Shown here: positions 5,649 to 55,423 of the stretch, piece after piece
How the letters are laid out: each line of letters opens with the position of its first letter
Position numbering within the stretch: the stretch's first letter is position 1
From: Roseomonas indoligenes
GTDB taxonomy: Bacteria; Pseudomonadota; Alphaproteobacteria; Acetobacterales; Acetobacteraceae
Length of the DNA stretch: 64,000 nt
Direction of reading: 5' to 3'
NCBI RefSeq assembly: GCF_017813365.1
Contig: NZ_JAGIZA010000006.1
Coordinates: 124,001 to 188,000 of the forward strand
Notes under the pieces: generated by a model
Databases searched by the model: none
Seen by the model: the letters and a program-made list of their open reading frames with translations, nothing else
What the model was told of the DNA's origin: nothing
Translations under genes and position numbers: made by a program

Positions 5649-6059
5649 AATGCCAGACGGCCTGTAAGCCGGGTTCTGTCAGCCCCCGGCTCTCGCCGGG
5701 AACAGGACGACCATTCCTCTGGAACCCCTGTTGCCAGGGGCTTCTCGCGGCCAACCCGGATGGCGGGGCGGGAAGCCCCTGGCGGCGAGTCCCGAAGGAA
5801 TCCCGCCGGCCATCCCTATTCGGCCTTGCTCCCGGTGGGGTTTGCCGTGCCGCCCCTGTCGCCAGGGGCGCGGTGGGCTCTTACCCCACCGTTTCACCCT
5901 TGCCTGGAAGGCCTTTCGGCCGTCCCGGCGGTCTCTTCTCTGTGGCACTGTCCCTGGGGTCGCCCCCGCCGGCCGTTAGCCGGCACCGTTTTCCCATGGA
6001 GCCCGGACTTTCCTCCACCGCCCCTTTCGGTGCTGGCAGCGGTCGTCCGGCCGTCTGGC
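5649..6059 (-). ncRNA. rnpB: RNase P RNA, catalytic subunit
   Basis: RNA component of RNase P, which matures tRNA 5' ends. Read on the minus strand the 5' strand of helix P1, CCAGACGGCC (6049-6058), pairs perfectly with GGCCGTCTGG near the 3' end (5653-5662). Conserved blocks are present in order: GGAGGAAAGTCCGGGCTCC, AGAGACCGCC, GGGTAAGAGCCCACCG and the 3' signature ACAGAACCCGGCTTACAGGC. Length is about 410 nt, normal for a type A alphaproteobacterial RNA. Ends are estimated from P1 and the upstream promoter and may be off by a few nt. Confidence 0.95.
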
Positions 6060-11896: not shown

Positions 11897-12242
11897 GTCA
11901 TTCTCCTATCGGGCGGCGCGGGTGCCGCCGGGGTGATGGAGCAATGTCAGGCGCCCAGGAGGGCGGCCGCCGCTTCTACTCCGTGAACCGCCTGCCGGGA
12001 TGGCGGGCGGGAAACGTGTGTCAGGCGCCCTGTCCTCCGTGGCCATGCAAGGGCCGCGGTGCCGGATGGGATCCGGCCCGGTCGTTCATGGGAGGATGAG
12101 GAAGGAGAGTGAGCACCGGGCACCTCGACAGGATGGTCTGTCGGAGCAATGCCCCAGGTCCAAAAGAACCTTGGCCGCTTCTACTCGCGGAGTGAGGATT
12201 AGAACGCTGCACGCCGGCCCCGCAAGCAAAAACGGAGCCAGA
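11897..12242. other. Gene-free stretch of 346 bp
   Basis: No convincing coding frame. It holds two short direct repeats: TGTCAGGCGCCC at 11945 and 12019, and CCGCTTCTACTC at 11970 and 12175. The near side must contain the promoter of the oxygenase gene (minus). Nothing RNA-like could be recognised by eye. Confidence 0.5.
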
Positions 12243-21074: not shown

Positions 21075-21109
21075 AAAAGGTGGGGGGATTCTGTTGCCCC
21101 GTTCCCCCC
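21075..21109 (-). terminator. Intrinsic terminator after ssrA
   Basis: On the minus strand GGGGGGA (21103-21109) pairs with TCCCCCC (21082-21088) around a 14-nt loop and is followed by ACCTTTTCC. It lies about 20 nt after the tag stop codon and marks the 3' end of the permuted tmRNA transcript. Confidence 0.7.
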
Positions 21110-21111
21110 GG

Positions 21112-21500
21112 ACGGCGCTTACCTATCTCTAGGCAGCGAGCGCCATGGTCTCGCGACCATTATCGTTGGCACTTGTGATTTAGCCCGATAACGGCGGTAC
21201 AATGCCGGGCAAAGGACACGTCTTTACCGCGCGCGTCGAGCCTGTTTCGCCCCCATGACCCGCTTCCCGTGCCGGGAAGGCCCCTCTCAGGGTCCGGGCC
21301 GATAAGCCCGGTTCAGGATGGTGGAGGCGCCGGGCACTGCCCCCGGGTCCACAACGCTTATTCCACGTGCCGTTTATCACCATAGTCGCCCGAAGGCGGC
21401 ACCACGGATATAGGCGCCCGTGCAGGCTTTGACCAGGGGCAAGCCGTCCCTTCCACCACCCCCGGCGGTATCGCCGCCCGAGGAACTCGTCCGAAGCTGT
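21112..21500 (-). ncRNA. ssrA: tmRNA, circularly permuted two-piece form
   Basis: Rescues stalled ribosomes. Read on the minus strand the acceptor piece comes first and ends CGCCTCCACCA (CCA at 21319-21321), after a T arm CCGGG-GGCAGTG-CCCGG. After about 65 nt of spacer the coding piece starts at 21254 with GGGGGCGAAACAGG; its GGGGGCG pairs with CGCCTCC to form the acceptor stem. GGCACGT (acceptor piece) and ACGTGTC (coding piece) pair as helix P2. The tag frame, 21129-21170, encodes ANDNGRETMALAA and stop. This layout is that of alphaproteobacterial tmRNAs. The outer 5' end (about 21500) is an estimate. An apparent open frame across it is not a gene. Confidence 0.93.
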
Positions 21501-36457: not shown

Positions 36458-36790
36458 ATGCCCGACCGGGACCCTGCCCTCGAGACTCTGGCGGAGATCG
36501 CCAACGACAACCTGGCCGAGCGGATCCGCCACGAAGCGGCCGCACGAATCCTGGTTGCCGCGCGCCGCATCCACGCCCTTCTCGACCGCCGCGGTGGGGA
36601 TCACCTGGTGGACAGCCTCGCCGCGGGTTGGGACCCTCACGCCGTGACCGCGCTGGAATACACGGAGACGATGCCCGTGCGCGTGCTGGACGGGCTTCTG
36701 GCCGCTGCCCCCCGCTGGGCCCGCGCCATGCGCGATCTCGTGGAGCCCTCCGCCTTCGAGAACCCGACCCCGGGCGCCGCGGCCGCCTGA
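36458..36790 (+). CDS. Small hypothetical protein
   Basis: 110 residues, not recognised. It looks soluble and helical: LETLAEIANDNLAERIR, AAARILVAARRIHALLDRR, then ALEYTETMPVRVLDGLL and ARAMRDLVEP. No signal or membrane segment. GGAATTTTGC precedes the ATG. Divergent from the sco gene and about 95 bp before the giant surface-type protein; the gap has no clear terminator. Confidence 0.6.
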   Translation: MPDRDPALETLAEIANDNLAERIRHEAAARILVAARRIHALLDRRGGDHLVDSLAAGWDPHAVTALEYTETMPVRVLDGLLAAAPRWARAMRDLVEPSAFENPTPGAAAA

Positions 36791-36885: not shown

Positions 36886-39800
36886 ATGCCCGTCGTGGCC
36901 ACGGGCACAATGCCCGCCACTATCCTTGAGACCGAGGACGCGGGCGATTGGTTCGCGACCTTTACCCTGTCGGGTGTTTCCGGCGTCAGGGACGTCGCGC
37001 TGACGGGAAGCGGCGCCTCCTTCTTCTCTGCATCGCTCGATTCGGGCGGCCGCGTCGTGGTGGCCCCCCTGGGGGCCATCGACCGCGAGGCTTTCGCCAG
37101 CGGCGCGGACCCTGTGCTGCGTCTCGGCCTTTCCATCCTTTCCGGCGGAACCTGGCTCAGCGCGACGGAAAGCTGGTCCGTCACCCTGCTCGGCGTCGAC
37201 GATACCGCGCCGTCCGGACTGCGCTTCAGCAGTGGCGGCGTGGTGCTGGAGAACGACCTGGGCGCCGAGATCGGCAACCTGCTGGCGGACGATCCCGATA
37301 GTCCGGCGGGGAGCCTGGAATACCGGGTTCTCTGGCCGGACTCGGCATGGTTCGAGATCGTTGGCACCACGCTGAAGCTGAAGGACGGCGTGGACCTCCT
37401 GCGGGAGGGCGGCACCTCGCGCGAAGTGATGATCGCCGTCTCCGACGGGCGGAACGAGGCCGCTTTCAGCATCGGCGTCGCCGTGCTGAACGTCACCGAC
37501 CAGGATGGGACTGCTCCCGTCTCGCCACCCGTCTCGGCGCCCGTGTCGCCGCCCGTGTCGCCGCCCGTGTCGCCGCCCGTATCGCCACCTGTGTCGCCGC
37601 CCGTATCGCCGCCGGTTTCTCCTCCGGTCTCGCCGCCCGTCTCTCCGCCGGCATCACCGCCCGCTTCGCCGCCGCCTCCCGCGGCGGACATCGTGATCAC
37701 CCATACCGGCAGCAACGCCGCCGTGGCCGAGGGCGGTGCGAACGACACCTTCACCGTCAGCCTCGCCACCATGCCCACGGCGGCGGTCACCGTCACCTTC
37801 ACCGTCGACAGCTCGCTGAATCTTCAGCGCAGCGCGAACGGCATCTTCGCCAAGACCGTCAGCTTCAGCATCGCGCCCGCTGACTGGGCGAGGCCTCGGA
37901 CCGTCATCGTCTCGGCGGTGGACGACTCGGCTTATGAGGGCACACAGACCGGGCGCATCGCGATCGGCGTCGCCAGCGCGGATTCCAGCTACTCGGCCCT
38001 GAGCGGTCTCGGCGTGAACGTGACGATCACCGACAACGACCTGCCGCCATCCCCACCCCCGCCACCACCGCCGCCACTATCCGCCCCGCTACCCGGCATC
38101 GTCATCGTCCAGACGGGCAGCAATACCGCGGTCGCCGAGCGCGGTGCGGGGGACAGCTTCACGGTCGCCCTCGCCACGCGGCCGGTCGCGCCGGTGACCG
38201 TGACCCTCCTGGCCGGGCCTGATCTCCTGCTCGCGACGAGTGGGGGTGGGGTGGGGGCCTCCGTCACCATCACCTTCACAACGGAGAACTGGGCCGCGGT
38301 CCGCGCGGTGATGGTGAGCGCCGTGGATGACGGCGTCGTGGAAGGGGCGGAGATCGCCGGGATCGCCTTCTCCCTCTCCAGCGCCGATCCCTCCTACAAC
38401 CGCATCTCCGTTCCGGCCCTGCCCGTGGCCGTGATCGACGCGCCAGTGACTGCCCCAGTCTCCCCGCCCCCCTCTCCCCCAGCTTCCCCGCCCGGCACCA
38501 CAGTCCTGGCCCCGGGCGGCAGCACCGGCACGGTGGCGATCTCGGGCTCGGGCCTGGCGGTCCTGTCGCACGCCGCTGGCGACACCGCGTCCATCGCCAG
38601 TCAGGAAGACGGCATCCTCGTCACCTGGCGCGACGGAACGACGACGCTGCTGACCGGCGTCACCAGCATGGCCTTCGCCGATGGCCATGTGGTCTTCGAC
38701 GGTGCCTCGGCCGGCGCCCGAGCCCTCCGCGCCTACCAGGCGATCCAGGGCACGGATCCGACGGCCGCGTCGCTCGGCTACACGGCCGAGCTGCTGGCGA
38801 AGGGCATCCCCATGCTCGCCGTCACCTCCTCGCTCCTGGGAACGGCGGACTGGGCGCAGCGCAGCGCCGGCCTCGACACCCAGGGGATGATCCGGCTGAT
38901 CTACCAGGACGTGATCGGCTATTCCCCACCGCCGGCCGCGCTGGACTACCTCGTGGGGGCTGCCGCCCGCGGGGCCAGCCTCGCCGAGATCGCGGCCATG
39001 CTCATCGACACGCCGGAGGCCGCCTCCTTCTCCGAAGCGCAGAATCCCGCGGGCATCTGGGTGGCGCAGATGACCGAGCGCGAGATCGTGCGCGCCTACG
39101 ATGCCGTTCTGGACCAGTTGCCGGACCCTGCCGTGCTGGCACGGTGGTCCTTCCTGCTGGACAACGGCTACGTCTTGCCCTGGCAACTCTACGTCTACCT
39201 GGCCTCGACGGATCTTTTCATCGCGCGCCACGGGGGCGAGTCCAACGCGGAGTTTGCGGTGGCTGCCTATGAGCAGGCACTGGAAAGGGCGCCGACCCTG
39301 CAGGAGCAGTTGGCGGCGCAGAAGGCGCTCGACACCGGCTTGCTCACCCGCATCAACCTGATGACGAACCTCGGCACGATGCAGTCGGAGATCGGCCTTG
39401 CGCCGGGCAATGGCCATGCCGAGCAGACCGCTTATCAGGAACGCCAGGCGGCCGGAGAGGTGCTGTGGCGCGGGCATTCGCTGGCGGACATCGCCAATTC
39501 CACGACCGGCCACGCCGTGAGCACGCGCAGCGCAGAGGAACTCTCGAAGATCGAGGTCGCGCCCGATGGTCTCGCCCTGCATTGGCAGGATGGAACGGAG
39601 GTGCGGCTCGGCGCCGTGCAGGAACTCTCCCTCGCCAATGGCAAGCTGGAGCTCGACGGCGCCCTGCCGGAAGCCGTCATGACCCGGCTTTACAAGGCGA
39701 CGATCGGCTGGGACCTGACGGGCGCCGGGGCCGCGGCCTTCGCGAACCTCCTTCACTCCGGCGCCACGCTGGCCCAGGTCGCGGACATGTTCCTCAGCAC

Positions 39801-40392
39801 GGATCCGGCGCGGGCGCGCATGGCCGGGCTGGACGCGGGGGGACAGATCGGTCTCGTCTATAAGGGTCTGATCGGTCAGGCTCCCGCCGCCGAGACGCTC
39901 GCCTACCTCAAGGGCTTCCTGCAGATCGGGTTCAATCTCCCGACGATCACCGCCTGGCTTGCCGAGCTGCCCGAAGCCGAAGGCGCCTTCGAGCGGAGTC
40001 ACCCGACGGGGATCTGGGTGCCGGACACCGCCGCCGCAGCCGTGGTGCGGGCCTACGACGCCACGCTCAACATCACGCCGGACCCTGCCAGCCTCCTGAT
40101 CTGGAAGGCGCTGATGCCGTCCCCGGCAAACCTCGTCACCCTCTACCAACAGCTGATGGATACCGACATGTACCATGCGCTCCATGACGGCCTGAGCGAC
40201 GCGGCCTGGGTCGCCGCCACCTACCGGGCCGCGCTCGAGGAGGACTTCCTCCCGGGCCAGCTGGCCCATTCCACAGGCCTCGTCGAGAGCGGCGCGGTTT
40301 CCCATCTCGGCATGGCGGTCGCGATCGGCGAGTTGCAGCCGCTGGTCGAGCCGCCCCGGTTCCTGACCGCGAGCAGCGTGGACCTGCTCTGA
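36886..40392 (+). CDS. Giant repeat protein: cadherin-like, two Calx-beta-like and duplicated DUF4214-like modules
   Basis: 1168 residues, no signal peptide. In order: an N-terminal beta region (about 1-100) ending SILSGGTWLSATESWSVTL; a cadherin-like unit (about 105-200, FSSGGVVLENDLGAEIGNLL, VMIAVSDGRNEAAFSI); a PVSP repeat linker (about 211-265); Calx-beta-like units at about 268-385 and 398-525 (AVAEGGANDTFTVSLATMP and AVAERGAGDSFTVALATRP, each with an ITDND or IDAP end); then two DUF4214-like halves at about 590-880 and 890-1155, with paired motifs GLDTQGMIRLIYQDVIG / GLDAGGQIGLVYKGLIG and NPAGIWVAQ / HPTGIWVPD. Such proteins are usually secreted by type I systems to the cell surface, but none is nearby. 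Ribosome site CGGAGCGCAGC. Confidence 0.7.
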   Translation: MPVVATGTMPATILETEDAGDWFATFTLSGVSGVRDVALTGSGASFFSASLDSGGRVVVAPLGAIDREAFASGADPVLRLGLSILSGGTWLSATESWSVTLLGVDDTAPSGLRFSSGGVVLENDLGAEIGNLLADDPDSPAGSLEYRVLWPDSAWFEIVGTTLKLKDGVDLLREGGTSREVMIAVSDGRNEAAFSIGVAVLNVTDQDGTAPVSPPVSAPVSPPVSPPVSPPVSPPVSPPVSPPVSPPVSPPVSPPASPPASPPPPAADIVITHTGSNAAVAEGGANDTFTVSLATMPTAAVTVTFTVDSSLNLQRSANGIFAKTVSFSIAPADWARPRTVIVSAVDDSAYEGTQTGRIAIGVASADSSYSALSGLGVNVTITDNDLPPSPPPPPPPPLSAPLPGIVIVQTGSNTAVAERGAGDSFTVALATRPVAPVTVTLLAGPDLLLATSGGGVGASVTITFTTENWAAVRAVMVSAVDDGVVEGAEIAGIAFSLSSADPSYNRISVPALPVAVIDAPVTAPVSPPPSPPASPPGTTVLAPGGSTGTVAISGSGLAVLSHAAGDTASIASQEDGILVTWRDGTTTLLTGVTSMAFADGHVVFDGASAGARALRAYQAIQGTDPTAASLGYTAELLAKGIPMLAVTSSLLGTADWAQRSAGLDTQGMIRLIYQDVIGYSPPPAALDYLVGAAARGASLAEIAAMLIDTPEAASFSEAQNPAGIWVAQMTEREIVRAYDAVLDQLPDPAVLARWSFLLDNGYVLPWQLYVYLASTDLFIARHGGESNAEFAVAAYEQALERAPTLQEQLAAQKALDTGLLTRINLMTNLGTMQSEIGLAPGNGHAEQTAYQERQAAGEVLWRGHSLADIANSTTGHAVSTRSAEELSKIEVAPDGLALHWQDGTEVRLGAVQELSLANGKLELDGALPEAVMTRLYKATIGWDLTGAGAAAFANLLHSGATLAQVADMFLSTDPARARMAGLDAGGQIGLVYKGLIGQAPAAETLAYLKGFLQIGFNLPTITAWLAELPEAEGAFERSHPTGIWVPDTAAAAVVRAYDATLNITPDPASLLIWKALMPSPANLVTLYQQLMDTDMYHALHDGLSDAAWVAATYRAALEEDFLPGQLAHSTGLVESGAVSHLGMAVAIGELQPLVEPPRFLTASSVDLL
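37516..37671 (+). repeat. 13 tandem 12-bp units encoding PVSP
   Basis: Thirteen in-frame units of the type CCCGTGTCGCCG, drifting to CCGGCATCACCG, encode Pro-Val/Ala-Ser-Pro/Ala. Third positions vary while the protein is kept, so the repeat is under coding constraint. It forms a rigid Pro/Ser linker between the cadherin-like and Calx-beta-like parts. Confidence 0.9.
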
Positions 40393-49573: not shown

Positions 49574-50557
49574 TCAGCGCAGCAGCGTCTCCACCAGGAA
49601 GGCCCGCACGTTCCGGCGCACCGCCGCCGCATCCTCCGCCGCATAACCCGTATGGGCCCCGACGGCGACGCAGGACGAGGTCTTCTGCACGAAGGGCTCG
49701 TTCGTCCCGGCGAGGTTGATCACGCCGTTCGCGCCCTCCTGCATCCGGCAGTTCCGCGTGCTCTGCGCGGTCGGCACGGGAACCAGCGGCGGGATCATCG
49801 GGCTGTCGAAGCCGTGCTGGCCGTTCGGGTATTCCGTCAACGTCGCATCGGCCCCGGCCGCGCGCAGCCGCTCCACGTAGTCGCGGCAGGGCGCGACGGG
49901 CACGTAGTCGTCCACCACGCCGTGGTGCAGCCGGATCGGCACGGCCGCCACCCCCGCGTCGCCCTCGTAGCGGACATTGCAAGGCGTATAGAGCCCGATA
50001 TGCGCCGCGAAGCGGTTCCCCGAACTCCCGTGCAGCCGCCGGAACCGCTCGCTCGCGGAATAGACCGCGGCCACCGCCCCCTTCGAGAACCCCATCACCG
50101 CGATCCGGTCCGCCCGGATGCGAGGATGCGCCGCCAGCAGGTCCAGCGCGCGATAGGCGTCGACCATCATCGCCAGCGAATGCAGCAGGTCCTGGTCCGC
50201 CACCGTGCTGGTGATCCCGCGCCCCGCGAAGCTGTCGAGGATGAAGGCCGCGATCCCCGCCTCGTTGAGCTGCCGGGCCCAGAGCTCCGTCGAGCCGCTG
50301 ATGCCGCCCGACCCGTGCACGAGTACCACCGCGGGAACGCGGCTCGTCGCCGGCCCCTGCGGCAGGCGAAGCTCTCCCGCCAGCGTCACCTCTCCGCCCT
50401 TCTCACCGCGCAGGAAGGCGCCGCCATCCGGCGTCGTGCTCCGCAGCGGCAGCACCTCCGTGCGCCCGGGCAGGGTGGCGCGCATGTCCTGCGCCAGGGC
50501 GGGCAAGGCCGCCGTCAACCCCAGGGCCAGCAGGACGGCAAATCCGTGTGCTCTCAT
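49574..50557 (-). CDS. Exported dienelactone-hydrolase-family alpha/beta hydrolase
   Basis: 327 residues. Signal peptide at 1-23 (ALPALAQ), then the fold PAVVLVHGSGGISGSTELW, nucleophile Ser in VMGFSKGAV (GxSxG), acid in DDYVPVA and His in PNGQHGFDS, so the triad looks complete. Extra cysteines near the C-terminus (NCRMQEG, SSCVAVG) may form a disulfide. Substrate unknown. GGAGGAG precedes the ATG. Confidence 0.87.
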   Translation of the reverse strand: MRAHGFAVLLALGLTAALPALAQDMRATLPGRTEVLPLRSTTPDGGAFLRGEKGGEVTLAGELRLPQGPATSRVPAVVLVHGSGGISGSTELWARQLNEAGIAAFILDSFAGRGITSTVADQDLLHSLAMMVDAYRALDLLAAHPRIRADRIAVMGFSKGAVAAVYSASERFRRLHGSSGNRFAAHIGLYTPCNVRYEGDAGVAAVPIRLHHGVVDDYVPVAPCRDYVERLRAAGADATLTEYPNGQHGFDSPMIPPLVPVPTAQSTRNCRMQEGANGVINLAGTNEPFVQKTSSCVAVGAHTGYAAEDAAAVRRNVRAFLVETLLR

Positions 50558-50699
50558 GGCATCTCCTCCGCGGGCGCGCTGCCGGCGCCTTCTCCCGGTA
50601 TTGCGGCACCCGCCCGGCGCGCCGTCAATCGCACCGCGCCACCTCCCGGCCCGGCCCGATCCGCACTATTCCCCTGATCACCATCGAGAGGAGGGCCCC

Positions 50700-52097
50700 A
50701 TGCCCAGCCGCGAAGCCGCCATCGCCCGTGCCCGCGCCGAATTCGACAGCGGCGCCTTCCGCGACCGCCTGGCCGCCCTGATCGCCATCCCCTCCACCTC
50801 GCAGGACCCTGCCGCGGCCGCGGAGTGCCGCCGCTACCTGGAGGAAGGGATCCAGCCCTGGGTCGCCCGCCTCGGCTTCACCTCCTCGATCCACCCCAAC
50901 CCCGAGCCGGGCTGCGGCCCCATCCTCATCGCCGAGCGCGTGGAGGACCCCTCCCGCCCCACCGTTCTCCTCTACGGCCATGGCGACACCGTGCGCGGGC
51001 TGGAGGACCAGTGGAGCGACGGCATCAAGCCCTGGGCCGTGACCGAGAAGGACGGCCTCTGGTACGGGCGCGGCACCGCCGACAACAAGGGCCAGCACAT
51101 CATCAACCTCGCGGCCCTTGAGGCCGTGCTGGCCGAGCGGGACGGCAAGCTCGGCGCTAACGTGAAGCTGGTGCTGGAGATGTCGGAGGAACTGGGCTCC
51201 AAGGGCCTTCGCCCCTTCGTCGAGGCCCATCGCGACGCGCTCGCCGCCGACGCCCTCATCGCCTCAGACGGCCCGCGCGTGGAACCTGCACTGCCCACCA
51301 TCGCCGCCGGCTCCCGCGGCAGCTTCATGTTCGACCTCGTGGTGAAGCTGCGGAACGGCGGCGTCCATTCCGGACATTGGGGTGGCCTGACGACCGACCC
51401 GGCCATCCTCCTCTCCCACGCCATCGCAAGCATCGCCGACCAGCACGGGAAAATCCTCGTCCGCGACTGGCTGCCCGGCGAGACCGTGCCCGCCAATATC
51501 CGCGCCGCGCTGGAGGGCTGCCCCGTTGGCGGAGGGGAGGGCGCCGCCACCATCGACGAGGGATGGGGCGAGCCCGGCCTGACCCCCGCTGAGAAGATCT
51601 ACGGCTGGGCCAGCTTCATCGTCCTCGCCATGCTCAGCGGCCGCCCCGAAGCCCCGGTGAACGCCGTGGCTCCGGACGCCCGCGCCGTCTGCCAGATCCG
51701 CTACACCGGCGATTCCGATCACGCGAAGTTCGAGCCCGCGCTGCGCGCCCACCTGGACGCCCACGGGTTCCAGAAGGTCGCGATCGAGAAGACCGGCATC
51801 CGCATGCCCGCCAGCCGCACCCCGCCCGACAATCCCTGGGTGCTCTGGACCAAGGCGAGCATGGAGACGTCGCTGAACACCCGCGTGCAGGTCACGCCCA
51901 ACGCCTCCGGCGGCCTGCCCGGTGACGTCTTCGTGGACCTGCTGGGCACGCCGCTCGTCTGGGTTCCCCATTCCTACAACGGCTGCAAGCAGCACGGCCC
52001 GGACGAGCACGTGATCCCCGCCATGATGCGGGAAGGGCTGGCGGCCTTTGCCGGCATTTGGTGGGACCTGGGCGAGCCCGGCACGCCGGCCCGCTGA
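50700..52097 (+). CDS. M20-family metallopeptidase
   Basis: 465 residues, cytoplasmic. Di-zinc amidohydrolase with the first ligand in LLYGHGDTV, Asp in GRGTADNKGQ, the acid pair in MSEELGSKG, the lid-domain His in GGVHSGHWGG and the late His in KQHGPDEHV. The family includes dipeptidases and N-acyl amino acid hydrolases (ArgE/DapE type, cytosolic non-specific dipeptidase type); the exact substrate is not readable. Ribosome site GAGAGGAGGGCC. Confidence 0.92.
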   Translation: MPSREAAIARARAEFDSGAFRDRLAALIAIPSTSQDPAAAAECRRYLEEGIQPWVARLGFTSSIHPNPEPGCGPILIAERVEDPSRPTVLLYGHGDTVRGLEDQWSDGIKPWAVTEKDGLWYGRGTADNKGQHIINLAALEAVLAERDGKLGANVKLVLEMSEELGSKGLRPFVEAHRDALAADALIASDGPRVEPALPTIAAGSRGSFMFDLVVKLRNGGVHSGHWGGLTTDPAILLSHAIASIADQHGKILVRDWLPGETVPANIRAALEGCPVGGGEGAATIDEGWGEPGLTPAEKIYGWASFIVLAMLSGRPEAPVNAVAPDARAVCQIRYTGDSDHAKFEPALRAHLDAHGFQKVAIEKTGIRMPASRTPPDNPWVLWTKASMETSLNTRVQVTPNASGGLPGDVFVDLLGTPLVWVPHSYNGCKQHGPDEHVIPAMMREGLAAFAGIWWDLGEPGTPAR

Positions 52098-55348: not shown

Positions 55349-55423
55349 TGGTGGGCGCGACAGGGATTGAACCTGTGACCCTTCGCGTGTGAAGCGAATG
55401 CTCTCCCGCTGAGCTACGCGCCC
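55349..55423 (-). tRNA. tRNA-Val (CAC anticodon)
   Basis: On the minus strand, acceptor stem GGGCGCG/CGCGCCC, D arm GCTCAGCGGGAGAGC, anticodon loop TTCACAC with anticodon CAC (reads GUG), T arm with GGTTCAATCCC, discriminator A and encoded CCA at 55349-55351. Length 75 nt with CCA. Confidence 0.96.

Follow-up and report, generated by a model that had tools for sequence, protein, structure and literature searches.

Cadherin-like and DUF4214 modules in a 1168-residue protein of Roseomonas indoligenes, a candidate type I secreted surface protein

A stretch of 64,000 nucleotides from the genome of Roseomonas indoligenes (contig NZ_JAGIZA010000006.1, positions 124,001 to 188,000; referred to below as the window) harbours an open reading frame (ORF) of 1168 amino acids (aa) at 36886-40392 on the + strand, which is the subject of the present analysis. 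The frame begins with an ATG, with no ATG, GTG or TTG between the preceding stop and this codon (36886), and it lies on the contig labelled C56 of a host genome of 5.8 Mb in 61 contigs. Judged by conservation, it is a genuine coding gene, because full-length orthologues with 58-73% identity to its product are present in five other genomes (G013, G006, G008, G009 and G002); the same conservation rules out a chance ORF of GC-rich DNA. A preliminary description of the window, prepared from the letters alone, had delimited the same frame. An adhesin or matrix protein restricted to the lineage, as it suggested, with export through type I secretion, is still the best reading. The family is little described, while its component parts are of known kinds. 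Several long ORFs antisense to the gene resemble high-GC shadows. The parts of the gene are listed below, with the basis on which each was delimited (AF2, AlphaFold2; pLDDT, predicted local distance difference test).

36886..37506, + strand: two cadherin-like EC domains, residues 1-207 (EC1 approximately 1-105, EC2 approximately 106-207); AF2 model, VIA-align, profile and conservation
37507..37686, + strand: PVSP/PPxSP proline linker, residues 208-267; 47% proline, low pLDDT, 12-bp repeats
37687..38043, + strand: Calx-beta-like beta-sandwich 1, residues 268-386; AF2 model, 47% identity with repeat 2
38044..38088, + strand: polyproline linker, residues 387-401; 73% proline
38089..38445, + strand: Calx-beta-like beta-sandwich 2, residues 402-520; AF2 model, 47% identity with repeat 1
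38446..38499, + strand: proline-rich linker, residues 521-538; 44% proline
38500..38709, + strand: beta element of module 1, residues 539-608; strands in the model
38710..39441, + strand: module 1, four helical DUF4214 repeats, residues 609-852; PF13946, model and alignment to relatives with four stretches
39460..39660, + strand: beta element of module 2, residues 859-925; model and alignment of a relative's module 2
39661..40341, + strand: module 2, four degenerate DUF4214 repeats, residues 926-1152; model and alignment, PF13946 below cut-off
40342..40392, + strand: C-terminal tail ending SSVDLL before the stop, a candidate uncleaved type I signal; family tail pattern

The AF2 model of the N-terminal half (mean pLDDT 74.6; predicted template modelling score, pTM, 0.33; domain placement unreliable) comprises two beta-sandwiches within residues 1-207, low-confidence proline linkers and two more beta-sandwiches. 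Comparison of the modelled EC pair by VIA-align gives Z 12.0 against cadherin-23 EC1-2 (2wd0; root-mean-square deviation, rmsd, 3.4, 190 residues aligned) and Z 10.9 against E-cadherin EC1-2 (1edh); the match list for this half is taken up by residues 1-205, and the Calx-like part is barely covered. A profile built from 29 family N-domains and compared with PDB sequences retrieves CELSR1 (E 2.3e-11), protocadherin-15 (1.2e-8) and cadherin-2 (2.6e-7), although these whole-chain values partly sum weak matches to repeated EC domains and the best single stretch of CELSR1 has E 0.022. The cadherin assignment of the preliminary description is thus upheld by model, fold comparison and family profile, but not by Pfam, which reports no cadherin match in the protein and, in the relative L078, a score of 21.4 bits against a cut-off of 28.8. 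With this modelling, the identification of residues 1-207 as two cadherin EC domains is supported.

Calcium in cadherins is ligated by an N-terminal Glu, a DRE motif, an interdomain Asp motif, a DxD motif and a late Asp. The corresponding acidic positions of the EC pair are E15, D66-R67-E68, D105-D106, D136 and D187; across the 29 family sequences, E15, D66, E68, D105 and D106 are conserved at 90% or more, and D136 and D187 are invariant. In the profile alignment, the DRE, DDTxP, DPD and SDG of the family face LDRE, DVNDNDP, DRD and SDG of CELSR1, motifs which we take to bind calcium in cadherins, while E15 is beyond the alignment shown. The pair would accordingly carry calcium-ligand-like acidic positions, that is, putative sites.

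Between the two halves, the PVSP linker coincides with a tandem repeat detected by TRF at 37516-37673 (period 12 bp, 13.2 copies), as had been described earlier. The two Calx-beta-like domains of the preliminary description fare less evenly: two related repeats are present and are modelled as beta-sandwiches, but the Calx-beta family PF03160 has no match in the protein (Pfam scan), and the profile comparison of these repeats with the Calx-beta domain of R. mucosa-type proteins is weak (probability 50%, E 1.6e-4). PF03160 matches 3/9 aligned relatives (best E 4.9e-12), taken as the three R. mucosa-type proteins with one such domain at the same place. The Calx-beta identity of the two middle repeats is, on this modelling, a weak assignment.

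The C-terminal half (model with mean pLDDT 80.9 and pTM 0.46) consists of two modules, in each of which a short beta element precedes four helical repeats. A single repeat exceeds the Pfam cut-off for DUF4214 (PF13946; residues 774-828, 34.0 bits against a gathering score of 23.2), and module 2 taken alone reaches 14.7 bits, which is under it. Relatives with the same N-domain (for example L048, L078, L080 and L089) contain four Pfam DUF4214 stretches each; both modules of the 1168-residue protein align along most of the relatives' modules (28% and 26% identity to L078), and module 2 of a relative aligns with residues 539-833, beta element included, at 34% identity. The two DUF4214-like modules proposed earlier were therefore counted correctly but understated, as alignment and model together indicate about eight DUF4214 units in total. 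Compared with other DUF4214 proteins, the repeats are strongly degenerate, with one stretch above the Pfam cut-off and the others visible by alignment and model, and they are arranged as two modules of four repeats, each led by a beta element. A beta segment of the model further resembles a lipase of a type I secretion system (2zvd; VIA-align Z 6.1, rmsd 2.6, 65 aligned within model residues 1-189), and this segment is probably the beta element of module 1 (residues 539-608).

Fold comparison of the C-terminal half, in which the match list covers mainly model residues 53-304 and barely module 2, points to two known structures. The best match is a phycobilisome linker domain (3nph, Z 8.0); next to be considered is the N-terminal domain (NTD) of RsaA bound to lipopolysaccharide (LPS) (6t72; Z 7.0, rmsd 4.1, 130 aligned, model residues 53-300 or protein residues 591-838), where a Z below approximately 13 may, for helical repeats, mean just a common arrangement, and the RsaA link is therefore a lead. 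In an alignment of 13 family modules, DUF4214 is matched by 13/13 at E<=1, the phycobilisome linker family PF00427 by 8/13 (best 2.5e-9) and RsaA_NTD by 1/13 (E 2e-4); among nine aligned sequences, RsaA_NTD is found in one (E 0.019). The family-module profile also retrieves the phycobilisome linker Glr2806 of Gloeobacter at E 2.2e-18. Remote homology of the DUF4214 repeats (38710-40341) with phycobilisome linker domains is thus likely, although the present protein lacks a photosynthetic context and is expected to be extracellular. In the literature collection searched, no paper treats DUF4214 together with phycobilisome linkers. In segmented filamentous bacteria, DUF4214 has been named as a domain that likely anchors proteins to the surface (PMC12780176). 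Furthermore, a 1,038-aa DUF4214 protein of Halomonas was mutated in 7/8 populations evolved in rich medium, and the authors suggest that it may be an extracellular enzyme that is anchored (PMC11970703).

With respect to export, the protein contains no cysteine, has an isoelectric point (pI) of 4.3 and carries 117 acidic residues against 51 Lys/Arg. Hydropathy reveals no signal-like or transmembrane (TM)-like stretch, consistent with the missing signal peptide of the preliminary description: the maximum over 12 residues in the first 40 residues is 1.51, as against 2.20 and 2.92 in two other proteins of the window that were taken to be exported or anchored in the membrane. The secretion genes whose absence had been remarked upon are indeed not listed in the window for the PrtD-type ATP-binding cassette (ABC) protein (96/150 candidates scored) and TolC (15/15 scored), the HlyD family not having been scanned there, but the genome does encode them. 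Contig C34 bears one PrtD-type ABC gene above cut-off (TIGR01842, 637.8 bits), followed directly by a HlyD-type adaptor (TIGR01843, 360 bits against a cut-off of 208.65), and, elsewhere on the same contig, TolC (TIGR01844, 291.1 bits against 225.15); the lack of a visible secretion system noted earlier does not extend to the genome. In a composition-filtered list of ORFs within 20 kb around the PrtD gene, no adjoining substrate gene was detected. The type I system PrsDE offers a precedent for substrate genes scattered over the genome (PMC9298526), and with a PrtD-HlyD pair and TolC encoded elsewhere the missing exporter is no real puzzle. On type I secretion in Roseomonas, the literature collection searched yielded one review, about cancer-associated microbiota.

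Relatives also bear on such export. Of ten relatives scanned, two have the same N-domain fused to an RTX array: a long one in L084 (PF00353 E 2.9e-98, with 23 strict nonapeptides) and a marginal one in L079 (23.7 against 23.0 bits, with 9 strict nonapeptides), both frames extending past the available stretch. These fusions tie the family to type I export. A hydrophobic C-terminal tail after an acidic residue, which is not cleaved, is a type I signal known from Erwinia proteases. In the present family, 27/34 proteins terminate in V, I, L, M, F or W, compared with 12/100 ORFs picked by length and codon composition, and the acidic-plus-hydrophobic pattern occurs in 20/34 against 6/100. These counts set mutually related family sequences against controls that may include spurious ORFs; they leave out frames without a stop and also L076, L077 and L082, which are duplicates or frames at a contig end. 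The tail [VI][DE]LL is present in 6/9 aligned sequences. Of twelve other DUF4214 proteins of the genus (L019-L022, L024-L030 and L032), 10 share a GI(L/A/V)F(A/L) tail, unlike the [VI][DE]LL of the present group. Taken together, type I export through a system whose genes lie at another genomic location appears likely from sequence, because exporter genes are present, relatives have RTX fusions, and the protein is free of signal or TM stretches and of cysteine, with a pI of 4.3.

On balance, we lean towards a type I secreted, calcium-stabilised, glycan-binding surface or matrix protein of adhesin-like character, in which cadherin domains form the head and DUF4214 modules the anchor. The gene, its domain anatomy, the conserved acidic positions, the exporter genes and the RTX fusions of relatives are results of computation, from which we infer an export route, calcium and glycan binding, an orientation and an adhesive role as follows. 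The unfolded, cysteine-free acidic chain would be recognised via its C-terminal tail and threaded through three components, the PrtD-type ABC protein, the HlyD that partners it and a TolC-like channel, whose genes lie at other places in the genome. Once the chain is outside the cell, calcium would fold and stiffen the two N-terminal cadherin domains, while the two C-terminal DUF4214 modules would bind polysaccharide on or near the producer (LPS O-antigen or exopolysaccharide), as the RsaA NTD does. The proline linkers and beta-sandwiches would keep the cadherin pair away from the surface, and the pair may bind matrix polysaccharide or a partner protein in a Rap-like manner.

The proposal can be set beside several known systems. 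RapA2, which has two cadherin-like domains, and RapD are substrates of PrsDE that bind polysaccharide and have calcium-dependent structure (PMC9298526). The likeness of the Rap family of Rhizobium leguminosarum, which was drawn from its description, comprises the cadherin-like domains and one type I system with dispersed substrate genes (PMC9298526); the present protein is far larger and possesses proline linkers, Calx-like domains and DUF4214 modules. RsaA, the S-layer protein of Caulobacter, leaves the cell through a type I system and is held on LPS by its N-terminal domain (PMC8828063), which the helical module resembles at a Z below the caution level for helical repeats; in the 1168-residue protein the module is C-terminal and duplicated, and neither RTX repeats nor an RsaA_NTD match is present. 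The repeat adhesins LapA, SiiE, CabC/CabD and BapP, with their cadherin-like or Calx-beta repeats, share the logic of calcium-dependent extenders of immunoglobulin (Ig) fold (PMC12153261), whereas the present protein is short, contains a pair of EC domains and a pair of Calx-like ones, and closes with DUF4214 modules.

The gene occupies a definite place on the chromosome. In the window its neighbours on one side are SerA-like and SCO1-like genes; on the other side are the gene of an Lrp-type regulator and a large gene resembling indolepyruvate oxidoreductase. We assigned these labels by reading the translations. As traced by tblastn of these neighbours, one chromosomal slot holds a family gene in 14/15 genomes of the genus (its own and 13 others), and the C-terminal half as query finds matches in 14/26 genomes, namely 14/15 of the genus (own included) and 0/11 others. 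In three R. mucosa-type genomes (L041-L043), only the SerA/SCO1 side of the slot is in common; the other neighbour there is a homologue of window 50205-52097 that replaces the Lrp-type regulator, a local rearrangement. A contig end cuts the slot of G007 (L039), where only the Lrp/oxidoreductase side is visible and the N-half lies on another contig. The slot of G014 (L074) is empty, with SerA, SCO1, Lrp and oxidoreductase present and approximately 180 bp from SCO1 to Lrp. In G015, of a different genus, SerA alone was found among the slot neighbours, and these are absent from the available stretch in two Pseudoroseomonas relatives (L048 and L050).

The forms held by this slot differ widely. Alongside the long form of approximately 1160-1190 aa, as in the window, there is an R. 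mucosa-type form of 964 aa with one Calx-beta domain, and three forms without the DUF4214 half (547 aa in G011, 556 aa in G001 and 588 aa in G010) retain the cadherin pair, the linker and two Calx-like domains. G005 has a natural in-frame form of 322 aa (L040:5788-6756), in which the first 24 residues are joined directly to the last DUF4214 module and the tail. The N- and C-halves of the slot gene are thus retained or lost independently. The loci of the three forms without the DUF4214 half are as follows.

L071:8557-10200, L072:5690-7360 and L073:4650-6416: short slot genes without the DUF4214 half, 547-588 aa

Beyond the genus, the N-terminal domain pair was found in 25/150 sampled genomes of the same taxonomic family (17/102 genera). 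A class-wide sample, in which only 10 candidates were scored in most genomes, yielded matches to the N-domain profile (E<=1e-10) in 17/289 genomes (own included). Outside its own genome the matches listed start at profile position 62 or later, mostly on the second EC domain in large cadherin-array proteins, the exception being G372, whose match spans positions 13-184. The sampled sequences place the family mainly in one taxonomic family of bacteria.

Several of these results weigh against the proposed exported and anchored surface protein. With respect to the anchor, neither module of the protein matches Pfam RsaA_NTD, the module profiles did not recover RsaA among PDB sequences, the RsaA likeness falls in the range of Z in which helical repeats may merely be arranged alike, and the phycobilisome linker scores above it. 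With respect to export, the exporter (contig C34) is unlinked to the gene (contig C56), such linkage being frequent among type I substrates though not obligatory, and the protein contains neither a strict match to the RTX nonapeptide GGxGxDxUx nor PF00353; 61 RTX-repeat matches in other ORFs of the genome, none of them at the 36886-40392 locus, imply that the exporter has other likely clients. Co-occurrence is non-discriminating as well: the PrtD-type ABC is present in 14/15 genomes of the genus, including G014 with its empty slot, while G001, with a short gene, has no PrtD match at E<=1e-130. Moreover, neither half can be indispensable, because G001, G010 and G011 are without the DUF4214 half and G005 is without nearly everything else.

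The alternative that survives best retains export and alters the fate of the protein. As a soluble, Rap-type lectin of the matrix, it would be exported by the type I system, released and left unanchored, with DUF4214 serving oligomerisation or matrix packing. The release of RapD and its oligomerisation in calcium (PMC9298526) favour such a course, and so does the likeness of DUF4214, in fold and in sequence, to phycobilisome linkers, which join proteins and not glycans. Nevertheless, an LPS anchor, the RsaA NTD, lies in the same structural neighbourhood as DUF4214, which has itself been named a likely surface anchor (PMC12780176), and we consider the released lectin somewhat unlikely. The RsaA NTD-like modules would also suit a protein that helps to build an S-layer or a similar coat; the Foldseek match of the N-half model to the S-layer protein SbsB (rank 6) may be cited as well, though as a general Ig-fold likeness. 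The C-terminal lattice domain of RsaA is presumably of the RTX type. RTX repeats are absent from the 1168-residue protein, whereas it is the C-terminal domain that forms the lattice in RsaA (PMC8828063); the architecture in the slot, from 322 to approximately 1190 aa, is furthermore highly variable, unlike that of a lattice protein, and the coat subunit is quite improbable. A non-exported intracellular scaffold, in which the beta domains and DUF4214 are cytoplasmic protein linkers, would agree with the want of a Sec-type signal by hydropathy, with the unlinked exporter and with the phycobilisome-linker likeness. It is set against RTX repeats in relatives with the same N-domain, an acidic and cysteine-free composition, and cadherin-type calcium sites, which fit an extracellular setting, and it must be regarded as very improbable. 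The cytoplasmic enzyme, named in the preliminary description as the contrary outcome, can be rejected, as no convincing enzyme family or fold was recovered (a chain related to clostripain had E 0.34, and certain enzymes appeared with low probability).

The preferred anchored surface protein also admits of a wider and more speculative formulation, which we hold to be unlikely as it stands. DUF4214 would be a widespread module that represents the RsaA N-terminal fold in its general form, clamping type I secreted proteins onto surface polysaccharide and remotely akin to phycobilisome linkers; joined in Roseomonas-type bacteria to a head like cadherin EC1-EC2, it would make a two-ended calcium-dependent tether (C-terminal anchor, N-terminal adhesive head) without RTX, the halves of which are lost or kept separately in one slot. 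If this were true, polysaccharide anchoring would be a function for DUF4214, a domain mentioned in just 4 papers of the literature collection searched, and Roseomonas-type bacteria would have a conserved surface family in whose EC1-EC2-like head the acidic positions that correspond to calcium motifs of animal cadherins are retained. Of most interest is the possibility that DUF4214 and the RsaA anchor fold are equivalent.

The gene is directly preceded, on its own strand, by an ORF of 110 aa (36458-36790, +) without a match in the Pfam scan. This small ORF recurs at 59-89% identity in 9/10 other genus loci of the long slot type (the tenth, G007, ends at a contig edge), is gone along with the 1168-residue gene in G014 and was not found in the three R. 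mucosa-type loci; it is a possible partner of the gene. A scan for promoter-like sites (0, with 0.2 expected) and terminator-like sites (3, with 1.5 expected) was uninformative, and a search of a plasmid collection revealed no place with 80% coverage of either query. Elsewhere in the window, all on the - strand, are RNase P RNA class A (5649-6058), a match to the xanthine riboswitch NMT1 (12139-12191; 47.3 bits against a gathering score of 36), an alphaproteobacterial (permuted) tmRNA (21079-21439) and a tRNA (55352-55423).

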